NCBI GenBank assembly: GCA_030265965.1
Contig: JAJDHA010000004.1
Location: forward strand, 1 to 55,823
Source: Odoribacter sp. OttesenSCG-928-L07
GTDB lineage: Bacteria; Bacteroidota; Bacteroidia; Bacteroidales; BM520
Reading direction: 5' to 3'
DNA length: 55,823 bases
Notes under the pieces: generated by a model
What the model saw: the letters and a program-made list of their open reading frames with translations, nothing else
What the model was told of the DNA's origin: nothing
Databases searched by the model: none
Translations under genes and position numbers: made by a program
Part shown: positions 4,873-41,454 of the stretch, one piece after another
How the letters are laid out: each line of letters begins with the position of its first letter
How positions within the stretch are numbered: position 1 is the stretch's first letter

Positions 4873-5859
4873 ATGAAGATAAATTTTAAACAGGCTTTTT
4901 TAATATTATTTCCTTTAATGTTTTTTTCATGTTCAAATAATGAATATAAAGTCAATATTAATAATATTAATTTGAATGATTATGATGTGAATAGATATGA
5001 AATTGATTTGCTTAAAATTCCACATGATAATTTTTTAAATGGATTGTTGGATTTATCTGATAAATATGAAGTGTTTCTTGGTGATATTAAGCAAGATACA
5101 AATGGTGTTGGTTTGATATATGATTTTGTTACAGATGATTATGTTTCAAAAGTTTATGATGAATGCATGATTTTTTATGAAAATTTTTCACAACAAGAAA
5201 ATGATTTTGAAAAGTGTTTTAAGCATATAAAGTATTATTATCCGAATTTTATAGCTCCTGATATTTATACATATATTTCCGGCTTTGATTTTGAATATCC
5301 ATGTGTTTATGATGGGGAAAATTTGTTTTTAGCTCTTGATATGTATCTTGGTGAAAATTCAAATTATTATGCGTTGGGAATTCCGGCATATATTGTTAAA
5401 AAATTTAATGAAGATTTCATTGTTAGAGATGCAATAGAACAAATTGCAGCATATAATAATGCTTCTTCTAATTCATATACCCGACTCATTGATTTGATGA
5501 TTTACTATGGAAAAAATTGGGAATTTATTAAATCAATGTCTCCTGATATGCACGATACTATAATTACCGGCTTTACTGCTAATCAATTAAATTGGTGCAA
5601 AAAAAACGAGAAAGATGTATGGAAATATTTGCTTTCCGATAATACTTTATTTACAAATGATTTAAGAGTAATGAAAAAGTTAATCGACGATGCCCCATAC
5701 ACTTCTTTTTTCTCACAAGAATCACCCGGCTCAGTTTGTAAATGGATAGGCTGGCACATCGTTCACTCTTATATGAAAAATAATAAGATTAGCTTAGAAG
5801 AAATGATGGCGATTGCTGATAATGATTTGATCTTGAGTAAATCAGGCTATCGCCCTTGA
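4873..5859 (+). CDS. gldB: GldB-family lipoprotein
   Basis: 328 residues with a lipoprotein signal peptide; the lipobox cysteine is residue 20 (LMFFSC-SNN). The sequence fits the GldB family of Bacteroidota lipoproteins (YEVFLGDI, YPNFIAPDIYTYISGFDF, LFLALDMYLGENSNYYA, IPAYIVKKFNEDFIVRDAIEQI, SPGSVCKWIGWHIV). GldB was found as a gliding-motility protein in Flavobacterium and is also present in non-gliding members of the phylum; it is expected in the cell envelope. It is transcribed divergently from the nadE operon. Its stop codon is the first TGA of an 8-bp tandem repeat. I see no good -7 box in the 90-bp divergent gap for this strand. Confidence 0.85.
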   Translation: MKINFKQAFLILFPLMFFSCSNNEYKVNINNINLNDYDVNRYEIDLLKIPHDNFLNGLLDLSDKYEVFLGDIKQDTNGVGLIYDFVTDDYVSKVYDECMIFYENFSQQENDFEKCFKHIKYYYPNFIAPDIYTYISGFDFEYPCVYDGENLFLALDMYLGENSNYYALGIPAYIVKKFNEDFIVRDAIEQIAAYNNASSNSYTRLIDLMIYYGKNWEFIKSMSPDMHDTIITGFTANQLNWCKKNEKDVWKYLLSDNTLFTNDLRVMKKLIDDAPYTSFFSQESPGSVCKWIGWHIVHSYMKNNKISLEEMMAIADNDLILSKSGYRP

Positions 5860-5923
5860 TTGATGTGTTGATGTGATCATTTGATGATTTGTTGATTTGA
5901 TCATTTTCACCACATCATCACAT
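5860..5923. repeat. Degenerate octamer tandem repeat forming an inverted repeat between convergent genes
   Basis: Consecutive 8-bp units read TTGATGTG, TTGATGTG, ATCATTTG, ATGATTTG, TTGATTTG, ATCATTTT and then CACCACAT, CATCACAT. The first and last units are near reverse complements, so the transcript can fold into a hairpin between the gldB stop and the M23 peptidase stop. The repeat continues into the 3' end of the M23 gene. Confidence 0.75.
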
Positions 5924-7163
5924 CAATTACAGCTTTCTCCCGAAACTCATCCATCAACTCATCCGGTACCGGCTCTACCGGCGGTGACTCCATCTTCAAC
6001 GGATTTATTGCTGTTCCGTTTTTGAAAACTCTAAAATCAAGATGCGGTCCTGTTGATGAGCCTGTGCTTCCAACATATCCGATTACTTGTCCTTGTTTAA
6101 CTCTACTTCCTTTAGTAATATCTTTCCCGAAAGATTTCAAGTGCATGTAAACAGTGGTGTAAACGCTATTGTGTTTAATTTTGACATAATTGCCGCCACC
6201 TTTATTATCCCAACCTTTTGCAATAACAGTTCCGTCGCCGATTGATTGTACCGGAGTTCCTGAAGGAGCCGCGTAGTCAACGCCAAGATGTGGTCGAACT
6301 TGCTTTGTTATCGGATGTTTTCTTGCGTATGAAAATCCTGAGCTAATTCTACTATAACTTAACGGCGCTTTTAGAAATTGGCGTCTCAAACTTTTCCCGT
6401 TTTCATCAAAATAATCGCCTTTGCCATTAACAACAAAATAATATGCTTTATTGTTTTGATTCGAATGTATAAAGTTACTCGCTAATATTTTGCCGAATCC
6501 TACTCGGTCTTCACCAACATATACTTCTTCGTATATCATTTCAAATTTGTCGCCGCTTTGTATTCCGAAAAAATCTATTGTCCATGCGTAAATATCAGAT
6601 AACTTAATTGCCAAAATGGGTGCAGCGCCTAAATCTATCATTGCATTCCATAGCGAAGAATTAATTTCGCCAGAAATTCTTTTGGTTATAGTATCTGTCG
6701 GCAATGTTCCTAAATATGAATAGATGCTGTCTTTCAACGAATAAACACAATAATCGATTGGAGAAATATCATAAATAAAATAATGAGCTTCAGGAACGGA
6801 ATCTTTAGTTTGTAAAACTCGGTATGTTGCGCCGCTGTTGAGTTTCCTTACACTATAAGTATCTTTTGAAACTTTTTCTAATTGATGAATTACTGCAGGA
6901 GAAACCCCATAAGGTCTTAATATTGTAGATAAAACTTCATTTTTCTTAATCGTATTTTCGGAAATATCATAATTATCAACACAAATTCCGTAAAGCATAA
7001 GCGGTTCAGGCTCCACAATTTCTTCATATCCGATTTCTCCATCGTGAGAATCGGAATGTTGTTTTCTTGAACATTTTGTGATTGAAATAATTGTGATGAT
7101 TATTACAATCAAAATAATAATTAAAGATATTAACTTTATGATACTACCACTTAACTTCTTCAT
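5907..7163 (-). CDS. M23-family peptidoglycan endopeptidase, membrane-anchored
   Basis: 418 residues. One N-terminal membrane segment (about 9-30, isoleucine-rich), a middle domain resembling the OapA/LysM-like region of cell-wall endopeptidases, and a C-terminal M23 domain (about 275-395). HxxxD (RPHLGVD, H292/D296) and YMHL are present. The usual HxH is HxD here (GPHLDFRV, H374/D376), so one canonical zinc-ligand histidine is Asp. I believe this variant recurs in Bacteroidota homologues and is compatible with metal binding. Expected role: cutting peptide cross-links in the periplasmic murein. The last residues (VIDVMMW) are encoded by the intergenic octamer repeat. The ATG overlaps the stop of the upstream PatB gene by one base (TAATG), suggesting translational coupling. 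Confidence 0.88.
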   Translation of the reverse strand: MKKLSGSIIKLISLIIILIVIIITIISITKCSRKQHSDSHDGEIGYEEIVEPEPLMLYGICVDNYDISENTIKKNEVLSTILRPYGVSPAVIHQLEKVSKDTYSVRKLNSGATYRVLQTKDSVPEAHYFIYDISPIDYCVYSLKDSIYSYLGTLPTDTITKRISGEINSSLWNAMIDLGAAPILAIKLSDIYAWTIDFFGIQSGDKFEMIYEEVYVGEDRVGFGKILASNFIHSNQNNKAYYFVVNGKGDYFDENGKSLRRQFLKAPLSYSRISSGFSYARKHPITKQVRPHLGVDYAAPSGTPVQSIGDGTVIAKGWDNKGGGNYVKIKHNSVYTTVYMHLKSFGKDITKGSRVKQGQVIGYVGSTGSSTGPHLDFRVFKNGTAINPLKMESPPVEPVPDELMDEFREKAVIDVMMW

Positions 7164-8335
7164 TAATCTAAATTATTTATTGCTGTTTTAATATTGTCTA
7201 ATGCCGTTTTAAGAACTGATAATGGACAACCAATATTCATTCTCATAAAACCTTCATAATCATCACCAAAATCGGTACCGCTATTTAATCCGACTTTAGC
7301 TTCATGTATTAAAAATTTTTTCAGATCATTGTGCGCCATTCCCAAAGCATTAAAGTCAATCCATGCAAGGTACGAAGCTTCAGGAATTATTACCTTTAAC
7401 ATTGGTAAATGATTTTCTGTGAAATTTTTAAGATAATCGCAGTTGTTTTGAAGATATGATGTTAATTGAAAAAGCCAGTTTTCTCCATTTTTGAAAGCGG
7501 CTTCACAAGCAACAAAAGCGAAAATATTACCGTTCGCAATTTCATAACCGTTTAGATATCCGAAAAATTTTTCGCGGATATTATCATTAAAAACGCATGC
7601 AATTGAACTCGATAGCCCAGCAATATTAAAAGTTTTGCTTGGCGCCATAAAAGTTATTGAACAATCTTTAGCTTCTTGAGAAACAGACGCAAAGGAGTGA
7701 TGTTTGTGTTGAGGTAAAATTAAGTCGGCATGAATCTCATCGGAAATAACAAGCACATTGTTTTTATGACAAATGCGTGCAATTCTTTGAAGGTCTTCTT
7801 CCGACCAAGCAGTTCCGCCCGGATTGTGAGGATTACAAAGTATCATCATTTTGCATCCCTTTATTTTTTCTATAAAATCAACAAAATCTATTGCAAATCT
7901 ACCATTTTCGATTTTTAATTTGGATGTAACTAATTGTCTGTTATTGTTTTTCGGAAGATTAATAAAAGGTGGATAAACAGGAGTTTGTATAAGAATTTTA
8001 TCGTCCTCATTAGTAAATGCTTGAATGCAAAATGATATTCCGGCAACAATGCCCGGAATAAAATGAATATTTTCTTTTGTCGCAGGTAAATCATACCTTT
8101 TTTCGAGCCAACTTAGCACAGTTGAGATATAACCATCATAAGCAAAAGTATAACCGAATAATTCATGATTACAACGCTCTTTCAATGCATCCACAATAAA
8201 ATCCGGGGTTCTGAAATCCATATCAGCAACCCACATTGGAATAATATCATTTGTGCCGAAAACCTTCGGTGCTAAGTCGTGTTTAACATTGTGAGTGCCG
8301 CTTCTATCGATTATTTCATCAAAATTGTAACGCAT
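7163..8335 (-). CDS. patB: PatB/MalY-type PLP-dependent cystathionine beta-lyase / C-S lyase
   Basis: A class I/II aminotransferase-fold PLP enzyme. The ATG at 8335 (MRYNFDEIIDRSGT) is preferred because family members begin this way; the ORF track extends six codons further upstream. Motifs: PMWVADMDFRTPDFI near the N-terminus, CNPHNPGGTAW, SDEIHADL, and the Schiff-base lysine in SKTFNIAGL (Lys234 from this start). Family members cleave cystathionine and other cysteine S-conjugates to pyruvate, ammonia and a thiol; some MalY proteins also act as regulators. A -7 promoter box lies 15 bases upstream of this start. Co-transcribed with the downstream M23 peptidase through a one-base overlap, an association with no obvious metabolic logic. 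Confidence 0.9.
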   Translation of the reverse strand: MRYNFDEIIDRSGTHNVKHDLAPKVFGTNDIIPMWVADMDFRTPDFIVDALKERCNHELFGYTFAYDGYISTVLSWLEKRYDLPATKENIHFIPGIVAGISFCIQAFTNEDDKILIQTPVYPPFINLPKNNNRQLVTSKLKIENGRFAIDFVDFIEKIKGCKMMILCNPHNPGGTAWSEEDLQRIARICHKNNVLVISDEIHADLILPQHKHHSFASVSQEAKDCSITFMAPSKTFNIAGLSSSIACVFNDNIREKFFGYLNGYEIANGNIFAFVACEAAFKNGENWLFQLTSYLQNNCDYLKNFTENHLPMLKVIIPEASYLAWIDFNALGMAHNDLKKFLIHEAKVGLNSGTDFGDDYEGFMRMNIGCPLSVLKTALDNIKTAINNLD

Positions 8336-8350
8336 AATTTGAAATTTTTG

Positions 8351-8358
8351 CAAAAATA
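8351..8358 (-). promoter_or_regulatory. -7 promoter box (TATTTTTG) for patB-M23
   Basis: Reverse-strand TATTTTTG, 15 bases upstream of the ATG at 8335. A second match (TATATTTG, 8400-8407) lies at the inner edge of the left inverted repeat of the GxxExxY cassette. Confidence 0.45.
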
Positions 8359-8364
8359 AATAAA

Positions 8365-8400
8365 AGCATTATGACATAATCACAAAATTACATAATTAAC
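8365..8400 (+). repeat. Left 36-bp inverted repeat of the GxxExxY cassette
   Basis: Begins AGCATTATGACA and can be read as degenerate heptamers (ATGACAT, AATCACA, AAATTAC, ATAATTA). It sits between the patB promoter and the 3' end of the GxxExxY gene. Confidence 0.8.
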
Positions 8401-8424
8401 AAATATATTTTCACTTTGGTTTTG

Positions 8425-8802
8425 TTATTTTTTATAAACTCTAAATTTTCGTTTGATTTGAACTTTTGATAATCCGAAATTTATTAATAAACCATCGTCA
8501 ATATTTGTTGCAACCAAATAGTTTACTAATTGTCGTTCATGAGCTAAACTTAAGTTCTCAGATGTTTTTAATTCAATTATTAATCTTTCCTCAACAAATA
8601 TATCTGCAAAGTAATTTCCAATATTTTCATCTTTATAATATATTGCAATTGGAAATTGACGTTCAACAATTAATCCTAGTTCTTTTAGCTCTATCAGTAA
8701 AGCTTTCTCGTATACTTTTTCAAGAAATCCTGCACCTAAATTATTATAAATCTTATATGAAGATTTAATTATTAATTTTATTATATCATTTATATCATCC
8801 AT
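8425..8802 (-). CDS. GxxExxY family protein (PDDEXK_3-type)
   Basis: 125 residues. Carries the signature G-x-x-E-x-x-Y (GAGFLEKVYEKAL), then a PD-(D/E)xK nuclease-like core: YFADIFVEERLIIELKT contains the D ... E-x-K arrangement and is followed by the conserved LVNYL segment and INFG. The family (TIGR04256/PF13366) is uncharacterised biochemically. Genomes that carry it often carry several paralogues, which suggests mobility. The start at 8802 keeps the full conserved N-terminus (DIIKLIIKSSYKIYNNLGAGF). The gene is the only ORF between two 36-bp inverted repeats, and it separates the patB operon from the HhH barrel operon. A nuclease role is inferred from the fold motif only. Confidence 0.85.
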   Translation of the reverse strand: MDDINDIIKLIIKSSYKIYNNLGAGFLEKVYEKALLIELKELGLIVERQFPIAIYYKDENIGNYFADIFVEERLIIELKTSENLSLAHERQLVNYLVATNIDDGLLINFGLSKVQIKRKFRVYKK

Positions 8803-8810
8803 AATAATAT

Positions 8811-8846
8811 GTAAATTTTGTAATTCTGTGATTTTGTCATAATGCT
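8811..8846 (-). repeat. Right 36-bp inverted repeat of the GxxExxY cassette
   Basis: Reverse complement of the left copy with four differences. Ends three bases before the stop codon of the HhH barrel protein gene. Confidence 0.8.
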
Positions 8847-28683: not shown

Positions 28684-28752
28684 ATTTGATTCCAAATTTC
28701 AAATTTGAAATTCCAAATTAATTTAGAATCTGGAATTTAGAATCTGGAATCC
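28684..28752. repeat. Inverted array of degenerate heptamers, tRNA-Ala to 23S spacer
   Basis: Units read ATTTGAT, TCCAAAT, TTCAAAT, TTGAAAT, TCCAAAT, TAATTTA, GAATCTG, GAATTTA, GAATCTG, GAATCC. Same family as the two upstream spacer arrays. Confidence 0.8.
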
Positions 28753-28811: not shown

Positions 28812-31706
<2,895 letters not shown>

Positions 31707-31725
31707 ATTAAGTTAAATTAGTTTT

Positions 31726-31749: not shown

Positions 31750-31784
31750 GAGTCATAAGAGTATATGACTTAAATGAAATATTG

Positions 31785-31889
<105 letters not shown>

Positions 31890-31897
31890 TTTTTTAT

Positions 31898-31930: not shown

Positions 31931-32000
31931 GCCCCTAAATCCCCTAACGGGGACTTTTGCCAGGTACTATCCCAAAAAGTGTGTATTAATTCCATTATGT

Positions 32001-32272
32001 CACGAATAACTGTCCACTAATGGCACGAATGAACACGAATGTTTTATTGCACGAATAACTGTCCACTAATGGCACGAATGAACACGAATGATTATGACAC
32101 GAATAACTGTCCACTAATGGCACGAATTTACACGAATGTTTTATTGCACGAATAACTGTCCACTAATGACACGAATGAACACTAATGTTTTATTGCACGA
32201 ATAACTGTCCACTAATGACACGAATTTACACGAATGATTATGTCACGAATAACTGTCCACTAACACGAATAA
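32001..32272. repeat. Tandem array of a 48/49-bp unit, about five and a half copies
   Basis: Units start at 32001, 32050, 32098, 32147, 32196 and 32244 (the last partial). Each begins CACGAATAACTGTCCACTAA and contains two further CACGAAT (or close) heptamers before a TTTTATTG or ATTATG tail. Units differ by a few bases. The rest of the gap to truA (32273-32383) has a small hairpin (ATTCCC-GTA-GGGAAT) and no gene. It lies between the rrn terminator and the 3' end of truA. Confidence 0.95.
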
Positions 32273-32383: not shown

Positions 32384-33133
32384 CTATAAGAATCCTAAAT
32401 CATATTTTACTTCCGTCAAACACAATCCTTTAGCTGGAACCGAAGCGCCGGCATTTGATCTATTTTTACTTTCAATAATATATCTAAAATCATCAAGAGT
32501 AATTTTGCTCATGCCAATTTCTAACATCGTGCCGCATATTGCTCGAACCATATTTCTAAGAAATCTGTCGGCTGTTATTGTAAAAATGATAATATGTTCT
32601 TGTTGATACCAATGAGCATCCTTTATTACGCAATTGTTAGTTGCAACATCAGTACCGACTTTCGAAAAACAACTGAAATCCAAATATTCTTTCAAAATCT
32701 CGCAAGCTTCATTCATTAAATCAAGATTGAGCTTTGCTGAGAAATGATAGGCAAAATCATTCATAAAAGGATCTTTCTCAGAAATAATTGTGTACTTGTA
32801 AGTCCTTTCAGTTGCTGAAAAACGTGCGTGAATTTCATTATTTTCCGGAATTAATAATTTTTTTATTTTGATATCTTCCGGTAAAATACCATTCAATTTA
32901 TATAAAAAATCATCAGCTTCGTAACTTATCTTTTCATCAATATCAAAATGTAAATAAAAGTCTGATGCATGAACACCTGTATCTGTTCTGCCGCAACCTA
33001 CAACAGGAGTTTCACGTCTCAAAACATACTTTAGCGCTTGTTCTATTTCTGCTTGAACAGTATTAGCATTCGGTTGTATTTGCCAACCATGATATTTTTG
33101 TCCGTTATATTCTAAGTTTAAAAAATATCGCAT
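32384..33133 (-). CDS. truA: tRNA pseudouridine(38-40) synthase
   Basis: 249 residues, usual length. Isomerises uridines 38-40 in the anticodon stem-loop of tRNAs. Motifs: MRYFLNLEYNGQKYHGWQIQPNANTVQ at the N-terminus, the catalytic aspartate in GCGRTDTGVHA (Asp51), HARFSATERTYKY, DRFLRNMVRAICGTMLEIG and the C-terminal GLCLTEVKY. It starts four bases after the stop of a Na/Pi cotransporter gene, so it is the last gene of that operon. Confidence 0.96.
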   Translation of the reverse strand: MRYFLNLEYNGQKYHGWQIQPNANTVQAEIEQALKYVLRRETPVVGCGRTDTGVHASDFYLHFDIDEKISYEADDFLYKLNGILPEDIKIKKLLIPENNEIHARFSATERTYKYTIISEKDPFMNDFAYHFSAKLNLDLMNEACEILKEYLDFSCFSKVGTDVATNNCVIKDAHWYQQEHIIIFTITADRFLRNMVRAICGTMLEIGMSKITLDDFRYIIESKNRSNAGASVPAKGLCLTEVKYDLGFL

Positions 33134-40768: not shown

Positions 40769-41422
40769 CTATATTTCTAAATTAACATAATAACATTCCT
40801 TTTCAGTAAATACAATATTTACCAATCTTAGTAAAATAAAGTCGGTTAATAGTTTTTGAGCTTTGTATCTTGAAATATCGCAGATTTTGCAAACTTTACT
40901 TAATGTGATTTTTTTATGTTCATCTAAATACTTCAACAATTTAGCTTCGGTCTCACCATAATTAATTTTTGTTTCAATGTTATTTGCTTTAGCTTTCCAA
41001 ACATCAATCATTACTTTGTTTACAAGAATATTTTGATCGTTAACTCTGATATATGCTAACCATTTTCCATTGTGGCTAAGAGCTTTAATAGGTTTTTTAT
41101 CTGATTTAGGAATTATTATTTCAATTATTGTTTTCCCTTCAATTTTCCATTCCTTTAAAGAAAATGGAACTTCCGGTGTGCAATACATTTTAGCTGCTGC
41201 CTCAGCCATATAAATTTCCTCACCCGTTCTTACACCTGTAATCGAACCATTATCTTTAACACCCAACAAAAGACTTCCTCCATCAGTATTTGCAAATGCT
41301 GCAAAAGATCGCGCAATCTTCTTTGCATCAGAGATTTCAAATTTGAAATCCTGATGCTGATTCTCGCCTAATGCAATTCGTTCAAGAATCTTAGACTTCT
41401 TTATGTTGTACACCTGCATCAT
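40769..41422 (-). CDS. AlbA_2 (Schlafen-type) domain protein with C-terminal winged helix
   Basis: About 217 residues. The track begins at a TTG within a heptamer repeat; two ATGs at 41422 and 41419 are the realistic starts. Residues about 10-115 form an AlbA_2 domain: GENQHQDFKFEISDAKKIARSFAAFANTDGG and LLLGVKDNGSITGV. The C-terminal 60 residues (LLKYLDEHKKITLSKVCKICDISRYKAQKLLTDF) resemble a winged helix. Family members are putative nucleic-acid-binding regulators, some in defence settings; this short, housekeeping-flanked copy has no partner nuclease or helicase. It sits 32 bases after the glycogen fusion gene and ten bases before ispH. Confidence 0.8.
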   Translation of the reverse strand: MMQVYNIKKSKILERIALGENQHQDFKFEISDAKKIARSFAAFANTDGGSLLLGVKDNGSITGVRTGEEIYMAEAAAKMYCTPEVPFSLKEWKIEGKTIIEIIIPKSDKKPIKALSHNGKWLAYIRVNDQNILVNKVMIDVWKAKANNIETKINYGETEAKLLKYLDEHKKITLSKVCKICDISRYKAQKLLTDFILLRLVNIVFTEKECYYVNLEI

Positions 41423-41449
41423 TCTCAATTCTCAATTCTCAATTCTCAA
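41422..41449. repeat. Heptamer tandem repeat (TTCTCAA) x4 between fusion gene and AlbA_2 gene
   Basis: Four perfect copies of TTCTCAA, then TTCAATC, fill the gap between the TGA stop of the synthase-phosphorylase gene (41455-41457) and the ATG of the AlbA_2 gene. In the mRNA this is a run of AATTGAG units directly before the start codon. Confidence 0.95.
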
Positions 41450-41454
41450 TTCAA

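Follow-up and report, generated by a model that had tools for sequence, protein, structure and literature searches.

Among described systems, the intervening sequences (IVSs) of 23S rRNA genes, with their S23 gene and heptamer repeats, are the closest in layout to the locus analysed here, and REPIN/RAYT systems are the nearest in behaviour. The Coxiella 23S rRNA IVS is bounded by terminal inverted repeats, and its S23 gene is preceded by tandem GACAGAT heptamers (PMC4990558); in REPIN/RAYT systems, one vertically kept gene per genome is accompanied by many gene-free inverted repeat pairs that form hairpins (PMC8049555). The heptanucleotide (STRR-type) repeats of cyanobacteria, including those of the P6b stem of the trnL intron, are degenerate and pair into hairpins (PMC3488679). 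GxxExxY proteins have been named in the literature in passing, beside a reverse transcriptase gene and in a gene table. Our search of the open-access journal literature found neither a function for these proteins nor a description of repeats flanking their genes; an earlier description of the arrays may exist in subscription journals or preprints.

The stretch of DNA analysed here (the window; 55,823 nt) belongs to a genome, G000, whose assembly is 74% complete (1.67 Mb, 117 contigs). It holds a unit in which one GxxExxY gene is enclosed by inverted arrays of short repeats. Like the IVS/S23 elements, this unit is short, bears one small obscure gene between terminal inverted repeats, is patchily distributed, and has tandem repeats beside the gene, which are 7-nt repeats in the IVS (PMC4990558). 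Unlike them, it encodes a nuclease-family protein and not the S23 four-helix bundle, the spacing of its repeat units is 8 to 10 nt rather than 7, and its site is intergenic rather than inside an rRNA gene. As in REPIN/RAYT systems, G000 combines a single kept gene with dispersed gene-free inverted pairs that form hairpins, but the protein is of the PD-(D/E)xK nuclease family, whereas RAYT is a tyrosine (Y1, HUH) transposase, and an array of 8-nt units takes the place of a single palindrome. The likeness to STRR-type repeats, compared by description, lies in short degenerate repeats placed to pair into a hairpin, with a step of 7 nt there and 8 to 10 nt here; we know of no link between STRR-type repeats and a gene. 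Our main reading, to which we give a probability of about 0.6, is that of a small element whose Cas4/lambda-exonuclease-like protein would recognise the units of its own arrays, and which would have gene-free offspring.

The window unit and its protein

The unit lies between patB and another protein gene, outside any rRNA gene, and has the following features:

7163-8353: PatB-type C-S lyase gene, neighbour of the unit
8365..8846, no strand: whole unit, 482 bp, lying between the patB promoter region and the stop of the 664-aa gene
8365..8404, + strand: left arm, an array of the 8-nt unit ACAnAATT pointing toward the gene; outer end AGCATTATGACA
8425..8802, − strand: GxxExxY protein gene, 125 aa, PD-(D/E)xK nuclease family
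8807..8846, − strand: right arm, an inverted copy of the left array pointing toward the gene; match to arm model R1, 54.1 bits
8850-10844: gene for a 664-aa protein, neighbour of the unit; no match in Pfam and NCBIfam searches

The first-pass annotation had described the ends as 36-bp inverted repeats with 32 of 36 matching positions and identical outermost 12 bases; these figures were reproduced, and the arms extend to 40 nt each (35/40 matches, 88% complementary). Matching the left side of the segment to the right in inverted orientation gave a best score of 27.5, whereas 500 dinucleotide shuffles reached at most 15.0. The left arm, which matches model R1 at 45.3 bits, was aligned with 13 other arms of the same genome and locus, and the consensus of 15 aligned arms is AGCATTATGACAnAATTACAAAATTACAnAATTAACATATT. 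The heptamer texture formerly ascribed to the arm gives way in this alignment to a step of 8 nt (ACAnAATT), and TRF reports a period of 16 at 8374-8404. In agreement with the earlier account, GxxExxY is the sole gene enclosed, with no transposase and no other family match between the arms, and an Rfam search over the 482-bp unit returned no known RNA family.

Other origins were considered for the unit. A transposon remnant with a transposase was ruled out, since the ends enclose none; a phage origin was rejected after both a PHROG search and phage records yielded no match, as was a defence system, for which PADLOC shows just weak Cas4-like matches (0.008). Plasmid records contain 8 distant matches to the element.

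The encoded protein matches the profiles TIGR04256 GxxExxY (5.8e-38, 129.8 bits; cut-off 35) and PF13366 PDDEXK_3 (1.6e-37, 128.9 bits; cut-off 22), and it has both the GxxExxY motif and the D..ExK catalytic residues. Across the family, G25, E28, Y31, E77, K79, Q91, and Y95 are invariant and D67 is nearly so; these residues are those of a PD-(D/E)xK core plus a QxxxY element, and nuclease activity is predicted from them. QxxxY is a hallmark of the RecB/Cas4 group. The AF2 model (mean pLDDT 95.4) has as its nearest solved fold SSO0001 (4ic1; E 3.6e-4, TM 0.61, 18% identity), which we take to be a Cas4, and lambda exonuclease, LHK-Exo, and MGME1 are other close folds. The predicted fold and the D..ExK..QxxxY residues are thus those of Cas4, lambda exonuclease, and RecB-type nucleases; unlike these nucleases, however, the protein is a minimal 125-aa domain at 18% identity, has its own flanking arrays, and is encoded between genes for a C-S lyase and a family-less protein.

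Inverted arrays around GxxExxY genes

GxxExxY genes are present in 63 of 119 order relatives as well as in several phyla, and to the loci collected from these relatives we added 79 loci in named genomes of several phyla. Inverted arrays (score ≥13) flank 83 of 177 GxxExxY genes, against 1 of 120 control ORFs; by this flank-score measure, about half of the genes are without clear inverted arrays. The best inverted match between the 250-bp flanks beat all 40 shuffles in 110 of 185 usable loci, and a left-right score of ≥18 was reached by 64/185 same-locus pairs and 3/185 cross-locus pairs. Close to the gene, repeated 5-mers are most frequent at distances of 9 and 10, where they reach 5.6 and 9.0 times the level of distant flanks, and this 9- to 10-nt spacing peak is seen near the gene only. 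The units themselves vary (CACAGAG, CACAAAG, ACGCAGATT, ACACTGATT, ACAGGATT, CACAGAC, and CACGAAT among them). Because unit sequence differs from genome to genome, the flanking repeats that the first-pass annotation expected other GxxExxY genes to share are shared in their layout, and among members of a protein clade, but without base-by-base identity.

At the level of whole genomes, the array pattern CACARAK(n)CRCARAK(n)CRCARAK is present in 12 of 56 genomes that lack the gene and in 32 of 63 that have it (p = 0.001), and at least five CACARAK arrays are found in 18 genomes with the gene and in 0 without; these are raw counts, uncorrected for genome size, and include arrays beside GxxExxY genes. 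A GxxExxY gene between inverted arrays looks like a member of a widespread, little-described family of mobile elements with dispersed gene-free copies.

We also asked how array and protein vary together. In a Mantel test, flank k-mers and protein identity were weakly but genuinely correlated (rho 0.13; permutation maximum 0.085), with a rho of -0.02 on distant flanks. This test was replaced by a unit-class test, in which the base that ends the unit (T, G, or C) defined the class of each array on a protein tree of 82 elements. The class changes 6 times on this tree, against 19 to 26 times with shuffled labels (mean 23.7); far-flank labels are nearly all of one class and hence uninformative as a control. 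At residue 108, 59 of 62 T-type elements have N, whereas T or S is found there in 20 of the 21 G-type elements, and two exceptions are mislabelled arrays: on rereading, L090 carries CACAGTG units and L040 has no clear array. Seven genomes carry T- and G-type elements together, each with the matching protein clade, and the mean protein likeness of different types in one genome (0.351) is lower than that of the same type across genomes (0.445). This co-inheritance of unit and protein is consistent with a protein that recognises its unit; shared descent without recognition is a possible source of the same correlation, because independent class changes are few and the G-type is essentially one clade.

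These data bear on the idea that self-spreading repeats enclosed a stable host gene by chance, with a protein unrelated to the arrays. Such a capture would agree with the arm family far outnumbering the gene in G000 and with the gene-free arrays of the 12 genomes lacking a detected GxxExxY gene. It does not sit well with left and right arrays that match within loci and not between them, or with a unit type that tracks protein clade across genomes; we dropped it as the main reading because control ORFs are without such flanks, and we regard it as very improbable.

Several further arrays were noted. Most of the 43 array matches in one genome, G053, are the identical string CACAGATTACACAGATTTTCACAAAT, the product of a recent burst in which either a single array or some larger element that contains it multiplied. 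The window itself holds, apart from the element, the following feature:

31994..32263, no strand: gene-free array block, 270 bp, of CACGAAT/CACTAAT units, related to the window element but separate from it

The 23S-5S rRNA genes (31000-31707, 31784-31891) lie on one side of this block and a truA-like gene (32384-33133) on the other, and the block has five other matching places in G000; its unit type is also found around the GxxExxY genes L112, L228, and L230 of other genomes. Intergenic tandem repeats at 41421-41452 and 28689-28750 of the window are heptamers and a 14-mer (ATTCTCA x4.6, ATTCCAA x4.4, and AATTTAGAATCTGG x2.2), and a tandem repeat with an 8/16/24-nt step, TTGATTTG-like, lies at 5856-5906, directly downstream of an M23-type peptidase gene.

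Empty sites, recurrent blocks and gene-free arms

The gene order 664-aa gene, GxxExxY, patB is common to G000 and the same-genus genome G001 (protein identities of 73%, 62%, and 78%, respectively), and the G001 GxxExxY gene is likewise enclosed by octamer-type arrays. The empty patB junction, which the first-pass annotation had suggested seeking in relatives, was found in three same-genus species (G002, G003, and G004): there, the 664-aa gene and patB adjoin across a short intergenic stretch, the unit is absent, and no GxxExxY gene was found anywhere in these genomes. Their junctions are too diverged for a target-site duplication to be read. Between G000 and G001 the gene is under purifying selection (dN/dS 0.15, at a dS of ~1.7 that is near saturation). 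Because the site is filled in G000 and G001 and empty in G002 to G004, and because of this selection, gain or loss of the window copy took place within the genus, and the gene has long been kept in working order; since G001 has the gene at the same site at such a dS, the copy is old and resident, with no sign of a recent move.

A clean empty site was found in another genus. Two genes with a 4-bp overlap (ATGA) in G119 are separated in G092, a genome of the same genus, by a gap of 531 bp that contains an array, a GxxExxY gene, and an inverted array; the 4-bp overlap suggests that the empty state is the older one. No target-site duplication is evident at this site, and the genus of G095, also searched for empty sites, yielded no usable one. 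Gene and array DNA are alike and outer flanks unrelated in L043/L048/L111 (three families), L105/L106/L108, L202/L221, L095/L118, and L187/L140; in L023/L077 and L084/L098, DNA similarity spans the gene alone. The mobile cassette proposed by the first-pass annotation is thus supported in kind, by its repeats as ends, gene-free copies, empty sites, and blocks in unrelated contexts, though not in its details.

An alternative without mobility is that a housekeeping or defence nuclease binds the units to regulate its own gene and others, with the dispersed copies being regulatory. In favour of such operators, each side of the gene has an array no more than tens of bases away, and the gene-free copies are intergenic. 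Inverted arrays are also found downstream of the gene, however, the unit sequence turns over completely between genomes, and similar gene-plus-array blocks in unrelated contexts and empty and filled sites also count against operators, which we consider quite improbable.

No second GxxExxY gene was found in G000, where further copies may be hidden given an assembly that is 74% complete. A DNA search of the unit against this genome returned many other places, which match the arms alone. Arm model R1, trained on most of the strong G000 arms, identified at least 28 places in G000, two of which are the window arms and 15 of the others exceed 30 bits; it identified at least 2 weak places in G001 and 0 in G002 to G009 among the candidates scored (150 per genome, which makes these numbers minimum values). 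Gene-free inverted pairs with short loops number three or more (C30:91282/91335, C30:82358/82430, and C96:43387/43456), and the gene-free arm pairs fold as perfect long hairpins. One array copy (L006:2726-2763) supplies the last codons and the stop of anmK in G000; the anmK ortholog in G001 has a different end, without the array. The first-pass annotation had counted a repeat widespread without its gene against mobility, and gene-free arms are indeed many in G000. Because gene and arrays are linked across genomes, these array pairs read better as non-autonomous offspring of the gene-bearing element.

The same layout was found around another gene. Among S23 four-helix-bundle genes of order relatives (L234-L263), inverted 7-nt arrays at a score of ≥13 are present in 21 of 30, and the 5-mer spacing of these arrays peaks exactly at 7 and its multiples. 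G000 itself has three S23 genes (C25:21164-21487, C26:8056-8373, and C85:19396-19719), of which the first (L242) is enclosed by inverted AGCTATC/AGCTGTC heptamer arrays.

The main rival to our reading is an RNA-level element like the 23S rRNA IVS, which would spread via reverse transcription or RNA processing with the protein as accessory or passenger. Folded as a transcript, the unit forms a long stem between its arms (-99.3 kcal/mol; shuffled mean -75.4, z -5.0), and the hairpins of the gene-free pairs, the layout of the S23 genes in related genomes, and the inverted ends of the Coxiella IVS, with its GACAGAT heptamers ahead of S23 (PMC4990558), would all agree with such a route. Any inverted repeat folds when single-stranded, however, so that folding does not tell DNA from RNA; moreover, the protein most resembles DNA exonucleases and SSO0001 in fold, the window unit is bordered by protein genes on both sides and lies outside rRNA, and no reverse transcriptase is present between the arms. 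We consider an RNA route unlikely.

Proposed mechanism and significance

For the action of the GxxExxY protein on its own ends, we infer recognition, cleavage, and copying in the following form. The nuclease would bind the units of its own arrays, as duplex or as extruded hairpin DNA, and would nick or trim at the array ends; host repair or recombination would then copy the unit, or the array pair alone, into a new intergenic site. In G000, this would have left one old, vertically kept gene copy beside at least ~15 strong gene-free arms. As a counterpoint, G001 has a GxxExxY gene, yet few strong arm copies. A wider proposal, which we put forward tentatively and hold to be possible rather than probable, is that these elements form a transposase-free class in which a minimal nuclease would read its own array unit, residue 108 corresponding to the last base, and would spread copies with and without the gene; the S23/IVS elements would then be a parallel class with another protein at its core.

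Tying GxxExxY proteins to specific arrays supplies a direct substrate on which they can be tested and explains a large set of otherwise unexplained intergenic repeats. If it is true that the nuclease moves the arrays, it would be a type of mobility enzyme not known for such elements. The link also gives the 23S intervening sequences, long a matter of debate, a place within a broader family of array-gene-array elements.
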